A DNA stretch of 64,000 bases from assembly GCA_005518185.1 (NCBI GenBank), contig RKSN01000003.1, positions 186,001 to 250,000 on the forward strand, read 5' to 3'. Made by a program: the position numbers and the translations under genes. This document shows positions 22,902 to 37,011 of the stretch, piece by piece. Each line of letters starts with the position of its first letter. The stretch's first letter is position 1. This DNA comes from Chakrabartia godavariana (GTDB lineage Bacteria > Pseudomonadota > Alphaproteobacteria > Sphingomonadales > Sphingomonadaceae). The notes beneath the pieces were generated by a model that saw only the letters and a list, made by a program, of their open reading frames with translations, was not told the DNA's origin and searched no databases.

Positions 22902-24059
22902 TCAGATCGCCTTTTCGTACACCCGGTAGACCTTGTTGACCGTGCCGCCCACGGCTTCGCCGACCGAGCGCATCGGGCTGTTTGAGGCCAGGACCCAGCC
23001 GAAATCGCCCTCGGTCGCGCCGAATTTCGACACGGCATCGCGGCGGATATATTCGATCATCATCATCGCAAGCTGGCTCGCGAGACGGGTGGCCTGATGC
23101 TTTTTGAGCACGCCCATCAGCGGCACGCGCATGGTGCGCACCTTGGGCGCGCGCAGCCACCAGAGGAGCTTCGCCCAGTTGAACGGCAGGAGCGACCCGT
23201 TGAACCCCTTCAGCTGTTCGTTGATGTCGGGGATCGTCATCATGAAGGCCACCGGCTCCCCATCGACTTCGGCGACGCGGATCAGGTCCTCATAGACGAG
23301 CGGCTTCAGCTTCTTGCCCGCATAGGCGATCTCGGCCGGGGTGAAGGGCACGAAGCCCCAATTGTCCGACCAGGCGTCATTCAGGATGCCGATGATCAGC
23401 GCGGCTTCCGCGTCAAAGCGGCTTTTGTCGACGCGGCGGATGCGGATGCGCTCGCTCTTGTCGCCCATCGCGACGATGCGGTTGACGAGTTCGGGGAAGC
23501 CTGCGGCAATCGGCACCGCATAGGTGAAGAGGTCCTGCGCCCCGCCATAGCCCGCACCTTCAATCCATGCCTGATAGCTGGCGGCGTTGAAGCCCATCAT
23601 CGCAACTGGCGGCGCTTCAAAGCCATCGACCAAGAGGCCGATCTCATCCCAATAGGAGAAGCTCAACGGCCCCATGGCACGGTTCATGCCATTGGCGCGC
23701 AGCCAGTCTGCCGCAGCATCAAGCAGCGCCTGCCCTGCCGCTTCATCCTCTGCCTCGAAAAAGCCCCAGAAGCCGACGCCCGGCCCCATGCCCTGTTCGG
23801 GCGGCTGCGCCAGTGCCAGCTGATCGATATGCGCCGAAATGCGCCCGACGACCTTGCGGTCACGTTCGGCAAGGAACAGCTCGGCCTCGCCATGTTCGAA
23901 CCAGGGGTTCTTGCCCGGCGTGATGAGACCATAGACCTCATCCTTGAGCGGCGGCACCCAATTGGGGTCGTTCGCGTAGAGGCGGAAAGGCAGGTCGACA
24001 AACGCCTTGCGGTCCGCCCTGCTCTTGACCGGACGGACGTTCAAACTGATCTGGGTCAA
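22902..24059 (-). CDS. YghO/BcerS-like GNAT acyltransferase, candidate bacterial ceramide synthase
   Basis: A 385-residue soluble protein made of two GNAT-like halves. Landmarks are LYANDPNWVPPL (about residues 28-39), GRISAHIDQ, GPLSFSYWDEIGLLVDGF (about 145-162), NDAWSDNWGFVPFTP and the C-terminal YRVYEKAI. From memory, this is the YghO-type family that includes the Caulobacter ceramide synthase BcerS, which acylates 3-oxosphinganine. A sphingolipid synthase gene 12 kb away supports the assignment. In older annotations the family is called N-acetyltransferase or dATP pyrophosphohydrolase, neither demonstrated. It is divergent from a membrane desaturase. Confidence 0.68.
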   Translation of the reverse strand: MTQISLNVRPVKSRADRKAFVDLPFRLYANDPNWVPPLKDEVYGLITPGKNPWFEHGEAELFLAERDRKVVGRISAHIDQLALAQPPEQGMGPGVGFWGFFEAEDEAAGQALLDAAADWLRANGMNRAMGPLSFSYWDEIGLLVDGFEAPPVAMMGFNAASYQAWIEGAGYGGAQDLFTYAVPIAAGFPELVNRIVAMGDKSERIRIRRVDKSRFDAEAALIIGILNDAWSDNWGFVPFTPAEIAYAGKKLKPLVYEDLIRVAEVDGEPVAFMMTIPDINEQLKGFNGSLLPFNWAKLLWWLRAPKVRTMRVPLMGVLKKHQATRLASQLAMMMIEYIRRDAVSKFGATEGDFGWVLASNSPMRSVGEAVGGTVNKVYRVYEKAI

Positions 24060-24167
24060 TGCGCTGGTCCCTCTGCCACGCGAATGGAGCGCCCCAAGTC
24101 CCGCCTTCTTGAAGCGATGTCAAGGCAACCCATATGCACTCTTCCCGATCGGACGGGTCGCGCACCC

Positions 24168-24192
24168 GCCATCATCCTGCCACGATGATGGC
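24168..24192. promoter_or_regulatory. inverted repeat between BcerS-like and desaturase genes
   Basis: GCCATCAT at 24168-24175 pairs with ATGATGGC at 24185-24192 around a nine-base loop. It lies in the 164-base divergent intergenic region, 31 bases before the desaturase ATG. It may be an operator or a leader hairpin; nothing else supports either. Confidence 0.35.
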
Positions 24193-24223
24193 GTCTAAGG
24201 CCGGACGTAGAAATGGAATTGGT

Positions 24224-25327
24224 ATGAACAGTTCGCTCCTTTCCGCAGACGATGCGCCGCTGGCGACCCCGCGCAAGGCGGCGGCGATCCCGCTGTCGCA
24301 GCATCCCGACGACGCGGCCATGATCCGCGCGGCCGCCGAACTGACGCGCGACCTGTCGACCGCACGGCCGGAATATTACTGGCCTGATTTCCTTGCCTGC
24401 ACGCTGGTTGGCTATGCAGCCCTTGCGCTCGCCATCATGGCGGACAGCACCGTCGCGTTGCTCGGCTGGGCGGCGCTTGCGATGCTGACGCTGTACCGGG
24501 CAGGCCTGTTCATCCATGAACTGACGCACATTCGGCCGCAGGCACTCCCCGGCTTCCGTCTCGCCTGGAATGCGCTGGTCGGCGTGCCGCTCCTTGTCCC
24601 GTCCTTCATGTATGAAGGGGTGCACAGCCTGCACCATGCGCGGACGCGCTATGGCACCAAGGACGATCCCGAATATCTGCCGCTCGCGCTGATGAAGCCG
24701 TGGACGGTGCCGGTCTTTGTGCTGGTGTCGGCGCTCGGCCCGATTGCGCTGCTGTTCCGCTATGCCCTGCTGTCGCCGCTGTCGCTGCTGTCATCGTCGC
24801 TGCGTCGCACGGTGGTGGAGCGCTATTCGAGCCTCTCGATCAACCCCGACTATCGCCGCCGGATGCCCGAAGGCGATTTCCGGCGCATGTGGATCGCGCA
24901 GGAGACAGCGGCGAGCCTCTGGGCGATTACGCTCCTCACCCTCGTCGCCACGGGCGTCATCCCGCTGCGCGCCTTCCTGATCGCGCTGGCGATCCATGCG
25001 GGTGTCGTCATGGTCAATCAGGTCCGCACGCTTGTCGCGCACCTGTGGGAGAATGACGGCGAGGTCATGACCGTGACCGGCCAGTATCTGGACAGCGTCA
25101 ACGTGCCGCCGCCGGGCCTGCTGCCCGCGCTCTGGGCGCCAGTTGGCCTGCGCTACCATGCGCTCCACCATCTGCTGCCGGGCCTGCCCTATCACGCGCT
25201 GGGTGAGGCGCACCGCCGGCTTGTGGCGGCACTGCCTGAGACCTCACGCTATCATGCCGCAAGCTATGACGGACTGCCGGGCCTCGTCTCCACGCTGGTC
25301 AGGAGCACCTTCCAGCGGGGGCGTTGA
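24224..25327 (+). CDS. membrane fatty-acid/lipid desaturase or hydroxylase
   Basis: A 367-residue integral membrane di-iron enzyme. The three histidine boxes are HELTH at 98-102, HSLHH at 134-138 and HALHH at 312-316, separated by hydrophobic segments at about 58-92, 118-132, 165-190 and 230-260. This is the FADS-type desaturase/hydroxylase fold. The start at 24224 (MNSSLLSADD) is preferred to an upstream in-frame ATG. Divergence from the BcerS-like gene suggests it may act on ceramide or its acyl chain, but a phospholipid or carotenoid substrate is possible. Confidence 0.82.
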   Translation: MNSSLLSADDAPLATPRKAAAIPLSQHPDDAAMIRAAAELTRDLSTARPEYYWPDFLACTLVGYAALALAIMADSTVALLGWAALAMLTLYRAGLFIHELTHIRPQALPGFRLAWNALVGVPLLVPSFMYEGVHSLHHARTRYGTKDDPEYLPLALMKPWTVPVFVLVSALGPIALLFRYALLSPLSLLSSSLRRTVVERYSSLSINPDYRRRMPEGDFRRMWIAQETAASLWAITLLTLVATGVIPLRAFLIALAIHAGVVMVNQVRTLVAHLWENDGEVMTVTGQYLDSVNVPPPGLLPALWAPVGLRYHALHHLLPGLPYHALGEAHRRLVAALPETSRYHAASYDGLPGLVSTLVRSTFQRGR

Positions 25328-25512: not shown

Positions 25513-26607
25513 CTATTCCTCGGTCTTGATGAGGACGTATTCGCCGATCAGCAGGAACAGGAAGAACGGCCCCCAGGCCGCGAGCAGCGGCGGGTAGACG
25601 CCGAGATCGCCCATGGCGAGGCCGAAATTGTCCGCGACGAAATAGGCAAAGCCAAGCGCCATGCCGATAACCGCGCGGACGAAGAGCTTGCCTGAGCGGG
25701 CTACCCCGAAGGCGGCGACGGCGGCGAGCAGCGGCATCAGCACCGTCGACAGCGGCCCCGAAATCTTGTGCCACAGAGAGGCCTTGAGCGACCGCGTCGG
25801 GCGGCCCGCCTGTTCCAGATCGCTGATCGCGCTCCAGAGCTGCACGAAGGACAGGCCATCGGGATCGACGCTGGCGAGCGTGAACTGGTCCGGCATGACG
25901 CCGGCCGCGACGGTGGTCGACCCGAGATTTTCGAGCACGCCGCGCTTCACGTCGAAGCGGCTTGCGCCCTCAAGCCGCCAGCCGGTGCCGAGCGGTCGGC
26001 CCGTCTTCGCCTTGATCACGGCATTCAGTTCGCCGCCGGCCCGGTCATAGACGGTTACGTCCCCCAGACGGGTCTGCGCGCCCCGCCCTTCGACGGTGCC
26101 TGCGTTGATGAGATTGGAACCGTCGCGCACCCAGATGTCGGACTGCACGCGACTGTCCATGGGAATGGGCGCATATTCAACCTTCTGCCAGCGGTTGAGC
26201 GTGGCCGTCGCGCGCGTCACAATCCGTTCGTTGAAGGCAAAGGTGAAAACCGCAACGCCAAGGCTGGCCACGATCAGCGGCGCCAGCACCTGATGCGCCG
26301 ACAGGCCCGAGGCCTTCATCGAGATGACCTCGCTGTTCTGATTGAGTGTCACCATCGTGATGAGCGTGCCGAGCAGCACCGAAAAAGGCAGGAAGCGCTG
26401 GATGATCTGCGGCGTGCGCATCGACACATATCGCCAGAGATCGCCATTGTCGTTGCCAGCCGCCGCGAGGATCTTTTCCGATTCGCCAAGCAGGTCGAGC
26501 GCCTGAAGGACGAGCACCAGCGCCGCCAGTACGGCCGCGCTCCGGACGAGGAATATCCGCGCCATATAGAAGGACATCGTCCGCGACGGGAAGAATTGCG
26601 CGCTCAT
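25513..26607 (-). CDS. lptG: lipopolysaccharide export ABC transporter permease LptG
   Basis: A 364-residue inner-membrane protein of the YjgP/YjgQ family. Three spans near the N-terminus, a large periplasmic beta-jellyroll domain (about residues 125-265) and three C-terminal spans match LptG. LPFSVLLGTLITMVTLNQNSEV and SAHQVLAPL are typical of the cytoplasmic coupling region. With LptF and the LptB ATPase it extracts lipopolysaccharide, or in a sphingomonad possibly glycosphingolipid, from the inner membrane. Its start overlaps the lptF stop by four bases. Confidence 0.91.
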   Translation of the reverse strand: MSAQFFPSRTMSFYMARIFLVRSAAVLAALVLVLQALDLLGESEKILAAAGNDNGDLWRYVSMRTPQIIQRFLPFSVLLGTLITMVTLNQNSEVISMKASGLSAHQVLAPLIVASLGVAVFTFAFNERIVTRATATLNRWQKVEYAPIPMDSRVQSDIWVRDGSNLINAGTVEGRGAQTRLGDVTVYDRAGGELNAVIKAKTGRPLGTGWRLEGASRFDVKRGVLENLGSTTVAAGVMPDQFTLASVDPDGLSFVQLWSAISDLEQAGRPTRSLKASLWHKISGPLSTVLMPLLAAVAAFGVARSGKLFVRAVIGMALGFAYFVADNFGLAMGDLGVYPPLLAAWGPFFLFLLIGEYVLIKTEE

Positions 26608-27809
26608 GCTGCGGCCTCAGGGGTTGGCTGCTTGCGGGTGAGCAGGTTGCGGATCGACTTGCCGAGCACGGCAAAGCCCTTTTCAAGCGCACCGATCGGC
26701 TGTCCGCCCGGCTTGTGCGCCAGCGTCCAGTACATCCAGCAGATGAGGAGGGCAAAAAGCAGGAACGGAGTCCAAAGCGCAAAGAACGGATCGACGCGGT
26801 TAAGCGCGCCCATGCCTTCGGCCCATTCGTTGATCTTGTGATAGGTGACGACCATCACGATCGACAGGAACACGCCAAGCGCCGAGGACGATCGTTTGGG
26901 CGGCACCGCCAGCGCGACCGCGAGCAAGGGCAGCAAAAGCATCATCGCCACTTCGACAAGGCGGAAGTGGAAATTGGCGCGGCTTTGATGACGCAGTTCA
27001 AGCGGCGAATTCGCATCCTGGCTGACGCGCACGAGTTCCGGAATGGTCAACTCCCCATCCTTGTCACCGCGCCCGCGAAACGCTTCGATCTTGGGCAGGT
27101 CGATCGGCAGATCATGCGCGGTGAAGGTCAGCACGCGGGGCTCCTGACGCTCAGGGCCGTCATGCACCAGCACACCGTTTTTGAGGCGCAGGATGATGAC
27201 GTCGGGATCATCGGTGGCCAGAAAGGTGCCACGCTCGGCGGTGACCGAGAGAGCGCGATTGTCCTTTGAGACCGCGCGCACGAAGATGCCGTGCAGGTCC
27301 TGCCCGCCATTTTCCGACCGCTCGATCCGCATCGTCATCCGCTTGCCGAACCGGGCGAATTCGCCGACCTTGATCGACGCACCGAGCGCGCCCGAGCGCA
27401 GTTCGAAGCGCAGGCCTTCATAGGCGTAACGGGCATAAGGCTGAACATAGCCGACGATGGCGAGGTTCACGCCCGCAAGCACGATTGCGTAGATGAAGGG
27501 CACGCGCAGCAGGCGCCCATAGCTCATCCCGACCGCACGGAAGACGTCGAGTTCCGACGTGGTCGCAAGCTTGCGGAAGGCCAGCAGGATGCCGAGCATC
27601 AGACCGATGGGGATGCCGAGCGAGAGATATTCGGGCAGCAGATTGGCAAGCATCCGCCACACGACGCTGACCGGCCCGCCTTCCTGCGCGACGAAGTCAA
27701 ACAGGCGCAGCATCTTGTCCAGCACCAGAAGCATCGCGGCGATCACGAGCGTCGAGAACAGCGGCAGAGCGATCAGTCGCGCGATGTAACGGTCAGTCGA
27801 GGTCAACAT
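26604..27809 (-). CDS. lptF: lipopolysaccharide export ABC transporter permease LptF
   Basis: A 401-residue partner of LptG with the same three-span, jellyroll, three-span layout. The start at 27809 (MLTSTDRYIARLIALPL) is the family's usual beginning; an in-frame extension of 107 residues upstream has no membrane-protein character and crosses the divergent promoter region. The coupling-helix region LPEYLSLGIPIGLMLGILLA is typical. Translated first in the lptF-lptG pair and divergent from the DUF2141 gene. Confidence 0.91.
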   Translation of the reverse strand: MLTSTDRYIARLIALPLFSTLVIAAMLLVLDKMLRLFDFVAQEGGPVSVVWRMLANLLPEYLSLGIPIGLMLGILLAFRKLATTSELDVFRAVGMSYGRLLRVPFIYAIVLAGVNLAIVGYVQPYARYAYEGLRFELRSGALGASIKVGEFARFGKRMTMRIERSENGGQDLHGIFVRAVSKDNRALSVTAERGTFLATDDPDVIILRLKNGVLVHDGPERQEPRVLTFTAHDLPIDLPKIEAFRGRGDKDGELTIPELVRVSQDANSPLELRHQSRANFHFRLVEVAMMLLLPLLAVALAVPPKRSSSALGVFLSIVMVVTYHKINEWAEGMGALNRVDPFFALWTPFLLFALLICWMYWTLAHKPGGQPIGALEKGFAVLGKSIRNLLTRKQPTPEAAA

Positions 27810-27945
27810 CGTGTTTCTGATTTCGGTCGGGTCCTGACCATGATTTGGCCGCAAATGAAGTTCAGATGGATCGTGCCAACGTGGATTAGGTGAGTCCGGG
27901 CGCGAGTGCAAACGGCCGGATGCATTTTTCAAGGTGGTCAGAGTG

Positions 27946-28434
27946 ATGGCGAAACTGCGTAATGGATTGCTGGTGCTGGCGACAGCGACTTTGGGATTGC
28001 CCGGGCTGAGCGCAGCACAGGCATTGGGCCCCAACCCTTCCCTGTGTTCGGGAAGCGACGAGCCCACGATTCTTGTCAGGGTGGCCGGGTTGAAGAACCG
28101 GGCAGGCACGGTCCGCGTCCGCACGTTCACCGGCAGCCCCGATACCTATTTCAACAAGAAGTTCGCACAGAAGCGCCTGGAATATGGCGTGCCGGCCAGT
28201 GGCCCGGTGGAAATCTGCGTGCCTGTCGGCGCGCCGGGGGTCTATGCGATCGACGTGCGCCATGACATCAATGGCAATGGCGATACCGACCGGGCTGATG
28301 GCATCGGCGCCTCGGGCAACCCGAAGATTTCGCTGATGTCGATCCTGTTCGGTCGCAAGCCGCCGGCGCGCGAAGTGCAGGTGACGGTCGCGCGCGGCAC
28401 GACGGTTGTCCCGATCATGGTCCGGTACCTCTAG
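27946..28434 (+). CDS. DUF2141 secreted protein
   Basis: A 162-residue exported protein with a signal peptide ending near LSAAQA (about residue 26) and one DUF2141 domain: LKNRAGTVRVRTF, then VYAIDVRHDINGNGDTD, then GNPKISL. The D-x-N-x-N-x-D stretch resembles a calcium loop. The domain is a small beta-sandwich of unknown function, frequent in sphingomonads. The ATG at 27946 has GTG alternatives just upstream. It leads a close run with the lipid kinase gene, three bases downstream. Confidence 0.83.
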   Translation: MAKLRNGLLVLATATLGLPGLSAAQALGPNPSLCSGSDEPTILVRVAGLKNRAGTVRVRTFTGSPDTYFNKKFAQKRLEYGVPASGPVEICVPVGAPGVYAIDVRHDINGNGDTDRADGIGASGNPKISLMSILFGRKPPAREVQVTVARGTTVVPIMVRYL

Positions 28435-28437
28435 GCG

Positions 28438-29406
28438 ATGGCGTTGGTCGCCCTTCTTTCGAACCCCAATTCGACGGGCAACCGCGCCATATTGCCGGGC
28501 ATCCGCTGCTTTTGCGCGCAGCATCCCGAGGTGTTCCATTATGAAGTCGAGGATGCGAGCCAGATTGGCGCTGCGCTGACCTCGATTGCGCAGGTGCGGC
28601 CGCGCGTGCTTGTCGTCAATGGCGGCGACGGCACCGTTCAGGCCGCGATCACCGAACTCTATCATGGCGGCCAGTTTGGCGACACGCCGCCGCCGGTCGC
28701 GGTGCTGCCCAATGGCAAGACCAACCTGATCGCGCTTGACCTCGGCGCCGATGGCGACCCTATCGGCCTGCTGGAGCGCATTGTGGAAATTGCGCGGCAT
28801 GATCTCAAGGACCATGTCGTCCAGCGCGAGCTGATCGCACTGACCGAAGGCGAACATAGCAACCGCCCGGTGCTGGGCATGTTCCTCGGTGGCGCGGGGC
28901 TGGCCGACACCATTCTCTATTGCCGCGAAAAGCTCTACCCGCTCGGCCTGCCCAACGGGCTGTGCCACGTGCTCGCCGGGATTGCCGCCGTCTTTGCGAT
29001 GCTGTCCGGCCTGCATGGCCGCCTGCTGCCGCCTGCGCCCAACCCCGTGTCGGTCTCGCTGATCCGCGACGGGGAGGCGACGCGCCGCTTTTCCTTCCTG
29101 ATCGTGACGACGCTTGAAAAGCTTCTGCTCAACAGCCGCACCGGCGCCGTCGGTGCCGCCGGGCTCAAGCTGCTCGCGATTGAGCAGTCCCCCCCGGCAC
29201 TCGCTCGCGCCCTCTGGGCGGCGATTGTCGGCAAGCTCGGGCGCGAGCCGGTGCGCGGCGTCCATGTGCAGCAGGGTGACCTGATCCGCATCGAAAGCAC
29301 GGGGACGAGCGTGATCCTCGACGGCGAAACCTTCCGTGCCGTGGAAGGTCGGCCCATCGTGCTGCGGTCGACACCGCCCATACCGTTCGTCAAGCTGGCG
29401 GTGTGA
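28438..29406 (+). CDS. diacylglycerol-kinase-family lipid kinase
   Basis: A 322-residue cytoplasmic kinase of the DAGKc fold. Signature segments are SNPNSTGNR at about 8-16, VNGGDGTVQAAI at about 60-71 (nucleotide loop), VLPNGKTNLIA at about 88-98 (a variant of the usual P-x-G-T-G-N-D), and LDGETF near residue 300. It would phosphorylate diacylglycerol or a related lipid such as ceramide. It overlaps the next gene as GTGA, and that gene looks like a CDP-lipid synthase, so a kinase followed by a cytidylyltransferase is a coherent two-step pathway. Confidence 0.84.
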   Translation: MALVALLSNPNSTGNRAILPGIRCFCAQHPEVFHYEVEDASQIGAALTSIAQVRPRVLVVNGGDGTVQAAITELYHGGQFGDTPPPVAVLPNGKTNLIALDLGADGDPIGLLERIVEIARHDLKDHVVQRELIALTEGEHSNRPVLGMFLGGAGLADTILYCREKLYPLGLPNGLCHVLAGIAAVFAMLSGLHGRLLPPAPNPVSVSLIRDGEATRRFSFLIVTTLEKLLLNSRTGAVGAAGLKLLAIEQSPPALARALWAAIVGKLGREPVRGVHVQQGDLIRIESTGTSVILDGETFRAVEGRPIVLRSTPPIPFVKLAV

Positions 29407-30272
29407 GCGACCTGCGCGCGCTGGTCGAAAGCGAGCTGGCGCACCCCGTCCTTCCCCAGGTCACCGATATGGCCGCAGCCATTGCCGCACGTCATGGCGA
29501 GGCCGCGCGCGCCGTCCTGTTCTACGGGTCCTGCCTGCGCGAGGCGCGGCTCGACGGGCTGATGCTCGACTTCTACCTGATCGTCTCCGACTACCCGTCA
29601 GCCTATGACAAAGGCTGGCTGGCGACGGCCAACCGCCTGATCCCGCCCAACGTCTTTCCTTTTGCGAAGGACGGGCTGGCCGCCAAATATGCGGTGCTGA
29701 GCGAGGCGGATTTTCGCGCGCTGAACCGGGCGGATGCCGACACGGTGTCGGTCTGGGCGCGATTTGCGCAGCCCTCCCGCCTCGTCTGGGCACGCAACGA
29801 GGCGGCCCGCGAGGCCGCCGTGGATGCCGTCGCGCTGGCCGCGCCTGCGCTGTTTGATCTCGCCCGCCCCGTCGCACCCTCGCTCGACCCGATGGCGGTC
29901 TGGCAGGAGGGCTTTGCACGCACCTATCAGTGTGAGCTGCGCGCGGAAAAGACGACGCGGTCGGGATCGATCGTGGACGCCGATCCGGAGCGTTATGCCC
30001 GCTTCGGCGCTGCCATTCCGCTGACGACAACGATGACGCGCCCGGCGGCCGAGCGGATCTGGCGGCGGCTACGGCGGAACGGAAAGCGCGCGAGCGTCCT
30101 CCGGCTGGCCAAGGCGAGCCTGACCTTTTCAGGGGGGATCGATTACCTCGCCTGGAAGATCAACCGGCACGCCGGCACCCAGATCGTGATCAAGCCCTGG
30201 CAGCGGCGGCATCCGCTGATCGCGGCGCTCTTCCTTGTGCCAAAGCTGCTGCGGCAGGGCGCGGTCCGCTAA
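29403..30272 (+). CDS. Tam41-like nucleotidyltransferase, candidate CDP-diacylglycerol synthase
   Basis: A 289-residue soluble protein starting at a GTG inside the kinase stop. The nucleotidyltransferase signature is FYGSCLREARLDGLMLDF (about residues 40-57): G-S, then D-x-x-x-x-D. After it come PPNVFPF and KYAVLS (about residues 80-100), placed as AGVYYN and KYGVIS are in mitochondrial Tam41, which makes CDP-diacylglycerol from phosphatidate and CTP. That parallel is from memory, not alignment. C-terminal IKPWQRRHPLIAALF may be a membrane-binding amphipathic tail. Often left as hypothetical. Confidence 0.6.
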   Translation: MSDLRALVESELAHPVLPQVTDMAAAIAARHGEAARAVLFYGSCLREARLDGLMLDFYLIVSDYPSAYDKGWLATANRLIPPNVFPFAKDGLAAKYAVLSEADFRALNRADADTVSVWARFAQPSRLVWARNEAAREAAVDAVALAAPALFDLARPVAPSLDPMAVWQEGFARTYQCELRAEKTTRSGSIVDADPERYARFGAAIPLTTTMTRPAAERIWRRLRRNGKRASVLRLAKASLTFSGGIDYLAWKINRHAGTQIVIKPWQRRHPLIAALFLVPKLLRQGAVR

Positions 30273-35451: not shown

Positions 35452-35694
35452 ATGACAGATCGACAGACAACGTTCGACAAGGTCGCAGAGCTGATTGAAC
35501 CCTTCAACAAAAAGGGTGTCGCGCTGAGCGATGCGACCACGTTCCAGCATGATCTCGAATGGGACAGCCTGACCGTCATGGATTTTGTCGCAGCGGTCGA
35601 GGATGAGTTCGACATCATCATCACGATGAACATGCAGGCCGAAATCGAAAATGTGGGCCAGCTGATCGACGCGGTGATCAAGCTGGGCAGTTAA
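35452..35694 (+). CDS. acyl carrier protein linked to serine palmitoyltransferase
   Basis: An 80-residue carrier. The phosphopantetheine attachment site is Ser39 in the EWDSLTVMDF motif (D-S-L). It is distinct from housekeeping AcpP, which is usually nearer fabF. In sphingomonads and Caulobacter the carrier beside spt delivers palmitoyl thioester to serine palmitoyltransferase (AcpR in Caulobacter), so that role is strongly suggested. A 114-base leader with three hairpins separates it from spt. No phosphopantetheinyl transferase is in the window. Confidence 0.9.
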   Translation: MTDRQTTFDKVAELIEPFNKKGVALSDATTFQHDLEWDSLTVMDFVAAVEDEFDIIITMNMQAEIENVGQLIDAVIKLGS

Positions 35695-35711: not shown

Positions 35712-35787
35712 CCCCGGGCGTGCTTCCGGGGTCGTGTCAGCCAGAACGGGAGTCTGGCGGACAGGGTGCCGGGGGCCAAGTCGGCAC
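35712..35787 (+). promoter_or_regulatory. three consecutive stem-loops in the acp-spt gap
   Basis: Stem 1: CCCCGG at 35712-35717 with CCGGGG at 35726-35731. Stem 2: GCCAGA at 35740-35745 with TCTGGC at 35753-35758. Stem 3: GTGCCG at 35766-35771 with CGGCAC at 35782-35787. Each is a six-base perfect stem. They end 21 bases before the spt start and may attenuate, stabilise or set the acp:spt ratio. Confidence 0.4.
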
Positions 35788-35808
35788 GACGCAACGGGAA
35801 GAAAGAAA

Positions 35809-37011
35809 ATGACTGATCTTTTCTCTAAGTTTGATCCGCTGATCCAGCAGCGCGAAGGGTTGCTCGCCACCGGCGTGCGCGACCCCTTCTCGCTGGTCAT
35901 GGAAGAGGTGAAGTCGCCGACCGTCGCCGTGTGCAACGGCCGCGAGACCATCCTGCTCGGCACATACAATTACATGGGCATGACCTTTGACCCCGACGTC
36001 ATCGCGGCGGGCAAGAAGGCGTTTGACGAATTCGGCGCCGGGACAACAGGCAGCCGCGTGCTCAACGGCACCTTTCGCGACCACCGTGATGTCGAAGAGG
36101 CGCTGAAGGAATTCTACGCCATGGATCATGCCATGGTGTTCTCGACGGGCTATCAGGCCAATCTCGGCATCATTTCGACGATTGCGGGCAAGGGTGACTA
36201 TATCATCCTCGACATCGACAGCCACGCGTCCATCTATGACGGCTGCAAGATGGGCGATGCCGAAGTCGTGGCCTTCCGCCACAATGACGTGGAAGCGCTC
36301 GAAAAGCGGCTGAAGCGCCTGCCCCCGGAAGCCGGCAAGCTGGTCGTTCTGGAAGGCGTCTATTCGATGCTCGGCGATGTGGCCCCGCTCAAGGAGATGG
36401 TCCGCATCGCCAAGGAAGCCGGCGCGATGGTGCTCGTCGACGAAGCCCATTCGATGGGCTTTATCGGCGAACATGGCCGCGGCGTCGCCGAGGAACAGGG
36501 CGTCATCGACGATGTCGATTTCATCATCGGGACGTTCTCAAAATCGGTCGGCACCGTTGGCGGCTTCTGCGTGTCCAACCACCCGAAGTTTGAGGTCATG
36601 CGCCTCGTCTGCCGCCCCTATGTCTTCACAGCGGCGCTCCCGCCCAGCGTGATGGCAAGTTCGGCCACCTCGATCCGCAAACTGATGCACGGCAGCAACA
36701 AGCGCGCGCATCTGTGGGAAAATTCGAAGACCCTGCACAAGGGCCTGCGCGACCTTGGCTTCCAGCTGGGCACCGAAACGCCGCAAAGCGCGATCATTGC
36801 GGTGATCATGCCCGATCTGGAACGCGGCGCGATGATGTGGGAGGCGCTGCTCGACAACGGGCTGTACGTCAACCTCGCCCGCCCGCCGGCAACCCCTGCG
36901 GGCATGACCCTCCTGCGCTGTTCGCTCTGCGCCGAACACACGGCCGAGCAGGTGCAGGACATTCTGAAACGGTTCGCTGCGGCGGGCCGGGCGACGGGTA
37001 TTCTTTCCTAA
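35809..37011 (+). CDS. spt: serine palmitoyltransferase
   Basis: A 400-residue PLP-dependent alpha-oxoamine synthase that condenses serine with palmitoyl thioester to 3-oxosphinganine, the committed step of sphingolipid synthesis. The Schiff-base lysine is Lys245 in GTFSKSVGTVGGF. Other features are YNYMGMT, GTTGSRVLNG, DEAHSMGF and HRDVEEAL. The start at 35809 has GGGAAGAA upstream. It is bacterial and soluble, without the membrane anchor of the eukaryotic enzyme. The gene overlaps a response regulator by one base. This is the clearest marker that the host is a sphingolipid-making alphaproteobacterium. Confidence 0.93.
   Translation: MTDLFSKFDPLIQQREGLLATGVRDPFSLVMEEVKSPTVAVCNGRETILLGTYNYMGMTFDPDVIAAGKKAFDEFGAGTTGSRVLNGTFRDHRDVEEALKEFYAMDHAMVFSTGYQANLGIISTIAGKGDYIILDIDSHASIYDGCKMGDAEVVAFRHNDVEALEKRLKRLPPEAGKLVVLEGVYSMLGDVAPLKEMVRIAKEAGAMVLVDEAHSMGFIGEHGRGVAEEQGVIDDVDFIIGTFSKSVGTVGGFCVSNHPKFEVMRLVCRPYVFTAALPPSVMASSATSIRKLMHGSNKRAHLWENSKTLHKGLRDLGFQLGTETPQSAIIAVIMPDLERGAMMWEALLDNGLYVNLARPPATPAGMTLLRCSLCAEHTAEQVQDILKRFAAAGRATGILS

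Follow-up and report, generated by a model that had tools for sequence, protein, structure and literature searches.

Which lipid do two overlapping genes of Chakrabartia godavariana act upon, and what do their products make of it? A reading of the sequence alone (below, the sequence-only reading) had proposed that the first gene encodes a lipid kinase and the second a Tam41-like nucleotidyltransferase, and that together they offer a non-CdsA route from diacylglycerol, or ceramide, to an activated CDP-lipid. Having followed this up in the window (the whole stretch of 64,000 nucleotides that was analysed), in the remainder of the genome and in related loci of other Alphaproteobacteria, we think it probable that the pair takes ceramide to ceramide 1-phosphate and on to CDP-ceramide, within the cpgB-cpgC phosphosphingolipid pathway.

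The kinase gene, its partner and their neighbourhood

The 322-residue product of the first gene carries a DAGK catalytic domain by Pfam search (PF00781, 1e-12), with GGDGT at residues 62-66, which bears out the DAGK-type kinase of the sequence-only reading; ceramide would be its predicted substrate. A regular-expression search found no CxxxCxxC motif of the eukaryotic ceramide kinase in this protein, and lack of the motif is a feature of the bacterial ceramide kinase CpgB, whose Caulobacter representative (CC_1160) was shown to be a ceramide kinase (PMC10331486). It looks like CpgB by gene order and domain types, although it shares only 22-35% identity with the kinases that stand next to cpgC-like genes in other alphaproteobacteria. 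The stop codon of the kinase gene (TGA, 29404-29406) overlaps the GTG start of the second gene (29403-29405), giving the GTGA junction that had been described.

Table 1. Features of the pair and its neighbourhood, by position in the window
Feature	Position	Strand	Evidence
cpgB-like, putative lipid (ceramide) kinase, 322 aa	28438..29406	+	PF00781 1e-12; GGDGT at 28621-28635
cpgC-like, predicted Tam41-fold nucleotidyltransferase, 289 aa	29403..30272	+	model pLDDT 88.5; Foldseek top match 7ecd
Nucleotidyltransferase signature YGS...D56, single family-wide conserved acid	29523..29570	+	alignments
ELRAE; E178, R180, E182 invariant	29934..29948	+	alignments
DUF2141 protein, upstream of kinase	27934..28434	+	PF09912 1.1e-14
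LptG-like permease, start inferred	26604..27806	-	PF03739 1.2e-65
LptF-like permease	25513..26607	-	PF03739 5e-77
Fatty acid desaturase family protein	24134..25327	+	PF00487 1.3e-25
GNAT protein, putatively CerS-like by position and fold family	22902..24059	-	PF00583 4.5e-5
Acyl carrier protein of spt locus	35452..35694	+	PF00550 2.8e-8
Serine palmitoyltransferase (Spt)	35734..37011	+	NF047603 SerpalmtaseAlphaP 813.9 bits, cut-off 670

The pairing is found well beyond this genome. Among 240 alphaproteobacterial genomes searched (the class sample), a protein like the second one (CpgC-like) occurs in 28, and in 24 of these the kinase gene lies directly upstream of it, with a gap of -7 to +27 nt for the chosen start codons; such adjacency in 24/28 genomes argues that the pairing is not due to chance. 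Four genomes have no adjoining kinase (G123, G186, G202, G227; G and L are our labels for genomes and loci), G123 and G186 giving no kinase match anywhere in the 20-kb stretch, and at one locus (L014) the kinase is cut by a contig end. At the G186 locus (L123) the neighbour of the Tam41-like gene is CpgA-like, and nothing between the two matches a kinase.

A wider scan covered the best 80 of 582 loci; all titles among the 80 that specify more than Alphaproteobacteria point to Sphingomonadales. The kinase lies upstream of cpgC in 52 of these 80, and 50 of those 52 also have the DUF2141 gene, which stands near the cluster in loci L117 and L121 as well. In the flank taken from the other 28 there was no match to kinase, LptF/LptG, CerS-like or DUF2141 genes, the upstream flank being 2-3 kb in L076 and L093 and just 110 bases in L071, which cannot tell; spt and acp were matched in all 28 (L044, L049 and L051 included). 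These kinase-less loci belong mostly to Sphingobium, with a Novosphingobium and some MAGs, and in one from Sphingobium (L044) the upstream gene is, by eye, an unrelated 214-residue methyltransferase-like ORF. Thus the pairing is common but, with 28 of the best 80 of 582 loci lacking a kinase match, breaks in a mostly Sphingobium group, where the kinase/LptF/LptG/CerS-like/DUF2141 block seems to have been moved or lost.

Close relatives (L033, L035, L037, L038) have the gene set of the window (Spt, acyl carrier protein, LptF/LptG, GNAT and desaturase-family genes) around the pair, and in relatives, too, the putatively CerS-like GNAT gene adjoins the LptF/LptG block. Two loci, L113 and L114, hold a longer series: NTP_transf_3, GNAT, FA_hydroxylase, CDP-alcohol transferase, LptF/LptG and phosphoesterase, followed by a CpgA-like CDP-alcohol transferase, the kinase, the Tam41-like gene, spt, acp, an epimerase-type reductase (CerR-like) and an AMP-binding protein (AasR-like). 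Inserted genes aside, this is the order CC_1153-CC_1165 implied by the locus numbers and descriptions in PMC11324152, and the placement of cpgC between cpgB and spt (the order CC_1159-CC_1162) is found in both. The window has the kinase and CpgC genes, with spt and acp set apart from cpgC by 5.2-5.5 kb of downstream sequence that carries M23 peptidase, helicase, S4 and ferredoxin genes. Judged on gene order, neighbours and domain types, the window pair corresponds to cpgB-cpgC of Caulobacter, orthologues of which have already been reported from Sphingomonas wittichii and from Zymomonas mobilis, the latter without CC_1159 (PMC11324152).

Two further features of this neighbourhood touch on published Caulobacter work. 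The LptF/LptG pair (25513-27806) lies inside the sphingolipid cluster; in Caulobacter, second LptF/LptG copies have been proposed to serve sphingolipid transport (PMC11324152). The desaturase-family gene (24134-25327) adjoins the CerS-like gene, and its product may be the local counterpart of CC_0202, a Caulobacter DesA-family protein, encoded elsewhere, that hydroxylates the amide-linked acyl chain (PMC11324152).

Conserved residues and predicted fold of the second protein

The 289-residue protein had no match in Pfam or NCBIfam at E values up to 1. The motifs on which the Tam41 comparison was originally built are all there: YGS (29523-29531), LMLDF with D56 (29568-29570), PPNVFPF (29643-29663) and KYAVLS (29685-29702). 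To see which residues are kept we used two alignments, one of 20 sequences from across Alphaproteobacteria (the window protein and one each from 19 of the other 27 genomes), and one of 46 from Sphingomonadales (the window protein and 45 from the best 80 of 582 loci). Y41, G42, S43, D56, K95 and A97 are invariant in 20/20 of the wider set, which also has in common P82, W118, R120, Q123, P124, E178, R180, E182, K237, H256, G258 and others.

On the acidic residues we differ from the sequence-only reading, which had counted two in the signature. Only D56 is kept family-wide (20/20 and 46/46); the position two after it is Tyr in all 46 Sphingomonadales sequences and in 18 of the wider 20, and D51 is Asp or Glu in 45/46 sphingomonads but in only 9/20 of the wider set. 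Loss of two signature acids in orthologues, which had been named as evidence against the proposal, was thus a misplaced test, since one acid is conserved here and Tam41 likewise keeps one of the three usual in the nucleotidyltransferase fold, with positive residues positioning CTP (PMC11646218). The window protein family shares this single-acid trait, judged on D56 and the position two after it, and the invariant K95, R120 and R180 could be its CTP-placing positive residues.

A structure model built from the 46-sequence alignment has a mean pLDDT of 88.5 and a pTM of 0.86. When it was compared with the PDB by Foldseek, the first five ranks were all Tam41 chains, among them 7ecd (E 8.2e-9), a Firmicutes Tam41 with CTP-Mg, and 6ig2 and 6ig4, S. 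pombe Tam41. A second aligner, VIA, placed model residues 12-243 on 7ecd (Z 18.1, 215 residues, 2.9 A, 15% identity) and residues 1-219 on 6ig2/6ig4 (Z 13.8); the 7ecd alignment leaves out about 45 C-terminal residues, for which the model is less certain. The next family, aminoglycoside nucleotidyltransferases, reached a Z of about 9 over 107-114 residues, and ranks 4 to 14 had Z 8 to 9 over aligned lengths of 85-114 residues, against 215 for Tam41.

Sequence comparisons reach Tam41 from two relatives. Of the 20 aligned proteins, two match the Tam41 profile PF09139: L018 (8.9e-7, 29 bits against a cut-off of 24, residues 78-213 on profile positions 81-213) and L024 (5.3e-5), whose 23.2 bits fall just below the 24-bit cut-off. 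The stretch where the sequence-only reading had set PPNVFPF and KYAVLS against AGVYYN and KYGVIS of Tam41 is spanned both by the structural alignment and by the L018 match. At E 10 the profile matched neither the window protein nor anything in the C. godavariana genome, and the control genome, Caulobacter vibrioides, was also without a match; across 398 genomes of the phylum it gave 3 matches, none above the cut-off, and no bridge sequences. Sequence searches of the PDB with two profiles and with L018 did not find Tam41, their BAG6 and RBMX matches being at chance level, and a sequence profile met the nucleotidyltransferase-domain protein 9xbd at E 0.045. The structure prediction that the sequence-only reading had suggested as a check places Tam41 first, and the resemblance is upheld by a predicted fold match far above other nucleotidyltransferases together with, more weakly, the two relatives that match PF09139. 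A shared fold does not by itself give the substrate.

Ceramide or diacylglycerol: the reaction of CpgC

The C. godavariana genome encodes a CdsA-type enzyme (PF01148, CTP_transf_1, 1.0e-55, G000:C1:1121410-1122138), as do all 28 CpgC-bearing genomes searched. CpgC as a replacement for CdsA is rejected on this distribution. Accordingly, the proposed non-CdsA route stands as an additional enzyme and falls as a substitute: with diacylglycerol activation already covered in every one of these genomes, CpgC is an addition to CdsA, and a substrate other than phosphatidate is favoured. Of the two lipids originally offered, it is the ceramide branch that the sphingolipid neighbourhood supports, diacylglycerol being already served by the CdsA type.

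On the reading that we prefer, CpgB would phosphorylate ceramide to ceramide 1-phosphate, and CpgC, through its predicted Tam41 fold, would transfer CMP from CTP onto this product, giving CDP-ceramide and pyrophosphate. A further transferase would then place a head group (in Caulobacter, glycerate or phosphoglycerate, going by the genetics there) onto the activated ceramide, while a CdsA-type enzyme would continue to supply CDP-diacylglycerol for ordinary phospholipids. Counting against this CDP-ceramide route, the C. godavariana genome yielded no PF01066-family enzyme that would be dedicated to using its product, and the literature consulted yielded no assay of CpgC.

The sequence-only reading knew of no earlier description of the pair; it corresponds, however, to cpgB-cpgC, and in its outline the idea is already in print for Caulobacter. 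There, mutants show that both CC_1160 and CC_1161 are needed for ceramide phosphoglycerate (CPG), an InterPro CDP-diacylglycerol synthase domain was noted in CC_1161 (CpgC), and CpgC was suggested in 2024 to produce an NDP-activated ceramide (PMC11324152, 'Conclusions'). The pathway helps Caulobacter to live without LPS and confers polymyxin sensitivity (PMC12275187, PMC11324152). A literature search gave no report of CDP-ceramide in connection with bacterial sphingolipids and, by titles, nothing on Tam41 and this pathway in the bacterial sphingolipid/ceramide literature; the available portions of the Caulobacter pathway papers make no mention of a Tam41 structural match for CpgC.

Two other reactions deserve to be weighed. 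CpgC might be a bacterial Tam41 in the full sense, adding to CdsA a further synthase of CDP-diacylglycerol and acting on phosphatidate that the kinase makes from diacylglycerol; Tam41 and its Firmicutes relative do make CDP-diacylglycerol (PMC7018664, PMC11646218), and it is the Firmicutes Tam41 that gives the best structural match. Yet a CdsA-type enzyme is present throughout, cpgC occurs together with spt and the genes for ceramide, and the CC_1161 mutant loses CPG with a moderate increase in ceramide (PMC11324152), so that we regard this as unlikely. Equally, CpgC might join glycerate directly to ceramide 1-phosphate with no free nucleotide-activated lipid, as Caulobacter schemes that draw CpgC between ceramide 1-phosphate and CPG would have it (PMC12275187, PMC13228409), and the lack of an extra CDP-alcohol transferase in the C. 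godavariana genome would suit such a one-enzyme step; the direct step has, however, been called energetically not very favourable (PMC11324152). A nucleotidyltransferase fold with invariant D56, K95, R120 and R180 also points to a nucleotide, and we consider direct joining improbable. That CpgC is some other nucleotidyltransferase, an aminoglycoside adenylyltransferase or MNT-like enzyme with a small-molecule or protein target, is very unlikely indeed: enzymes of this sort come second to Tam41 in the structural comparison (Z about 6 to 9) and the profile match to 9xbd fits them, but they usually keep more acids, those at ranks 4 to 14 align over a much shorter stretch than Tam41 does, and the sphingolipid genes around cpgC speak for a lipid as substrate.

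Head-group transfer and comparison with known systems

If CpgC makes CDP-ceramide, which enzyme would use it? The C. godavariana genome (100% complete by estimate) has two PF01066 matches, in a search whose 14 controls all matched. One of these is PgsA (TIGR00560, 133.2 bits, cut-off 109.1) and the other is PssA-like (TIGR00473, 97.5 bits, under the cut-off of 107); a CpgA-like query gave no match in this genome at E 10 in a search that had no positive control, for which the PF01066 search is the better test. Exactly two PF01066 matches are found in 8 of the 28 CpgC genomes, the second being weak, as CpgA-like ones are, in three (G058, G080, G195), and both being strong in C. godavariana (G000) and four others (G026, G158, G159, G167). 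Extended regions from 18 of the 28 genomes, some cut by contig ends, gave a CpgA match in 9 and none in 9, with CpgA at about 8 kb from the pair in one locus (L130), and none of the best 80 of 582 loci, all sphingomonad, had a CpgA match. CpgA is thus not universal, being missing from part of the CpgC loci, which agrees with its second-step role in Caulobacter. Besides CpgA, the L113 and L114 loci each hold a second CDP-alcohol transferase of about 404 residues (L113:2975-4189, PF01066 3e-9; L114:15627-16838).

Elsewhere in the C. godavariana genome, a PF01943 flippase-type gene, an NTP_transf_3 gene and a TagF-like PF04464 gene lie side by side (L138:2321-6516, G000:C2). The NTP_transf_3 protein (L138:3842-4651) is 45% identical to one in the L120 cluster, and the TagF-like protein (L138:5350-6513; 24.4 bits, cut-off 22.1) is encoded 0.7 kb from it, with the flippase-type gene on the other side. 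Among 147 sampled Sphingomonadales genomes, CpgC-like proteins (down to about 35% identity) occur in 94 and TagF-like proteins in 39, all 39 of them CpgC-bearing, for which the chance probability is 6.6e-10 by genomes and 0.0022 by genera (20 within 44 of 56), shared ancestry being left in both figures. In three of the 39 genomes (G504, G613, G714) no more than about 5 kb separates the TagF-like gene from cpgC, and the same holds for G175 from the class sample; an NTP_transf_3-like gene was present in the flank taken from 13 of 29 loci (L174-L202).

As a general stand-in for CpgA the TagF-like protein is not supported: it occurs in only 5 of the 28 CpgC genomes of the class, and at least two of these five, G058 and G175, have a cluster that includes CpgA as well. 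Within the order, 55 of the 94 CpgC-bearing genomes lack it, and PF04464 also matches five control genomes, Caulobacter vibrioides included. We see it as a candidate extra head-group transferase, not a general partner of CpgC. A fuller scheme, in which CpgC makes CDP-ceramide and, in sphingomonads without CpgA, a CC_1153-like nucleotidyltransferase, in C. godavariana the NTP_transf_3 protein at L138:3842-4651, and the TagF-like PF04464 protein supply a head group unlike that of Caulobacter CPG2, is offered tentatively and seems to us on balance doubtful.

What is new here is that the search of this genome turned up PgsA- and PssA-like CDP-alcohol transferases only, CpgA not being among them, and that TagF-like proteins are confined, among the genomes sampled from the order, to CpgC-bearing ones. 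With neither CpgA nor a third CDP-alcohol transferase found, the options for the next enzyme are narrowed. Since the CpgC step was still called unidentified in papers of 2025 and 2026 (PMC12275187, PMC13228409), the fold evidence also sharpens the question of CpgC chemistry: for the step from ceramide 1-phosphate to ceramide phosphoglycerate, a Tam41 fold would reduce it to CTP and ceramide 1-phosphate. If this is true, Tam41 chemistry would be extended from phosphatidate to a sphingolipid.

Among known systems, the closest is cpgB-cpgC of Caulobacter crescentus (CC_1160-CC_1161, CCNA_01218-01219), where a lipid kinase is likewise followed by a protein with a CDP-diacylglycerol-synthase-type domain, near spt, ACP, CerS and LptF/LptG-type genes; it differs in that the spt and acp genes of the window are kilobases away and cpgA was not found in the C. 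godavariana genome. CpgD (CCNA_01210), the CTP:phosphoglycerate cytidylyltransferase, is also a CTP-type enzyme of the same pathway, but belongs by description to an IMPCT-like family, and its product is CDP-glycerate, not a CDP-lipid (PMC12275187). CdsA turns a lipid phosphate into a CDP-lipid, as CpgC is proposed to do, but is an unrelated membrane enzyme (PMC7018664) and is encoded separately in C. godavariana. Tam41 itself resembles the window protein in its nucleotidyltransferase domain, after which comes a largely helical part, in its one signature acid, and in a predicted structural match over residues 12-243; it differs in sequence (about 12-15% identity, with the window protein below Pfam detection) and in context, the window-type gene sitting with ceramide genes, in genomes that have CdsA.
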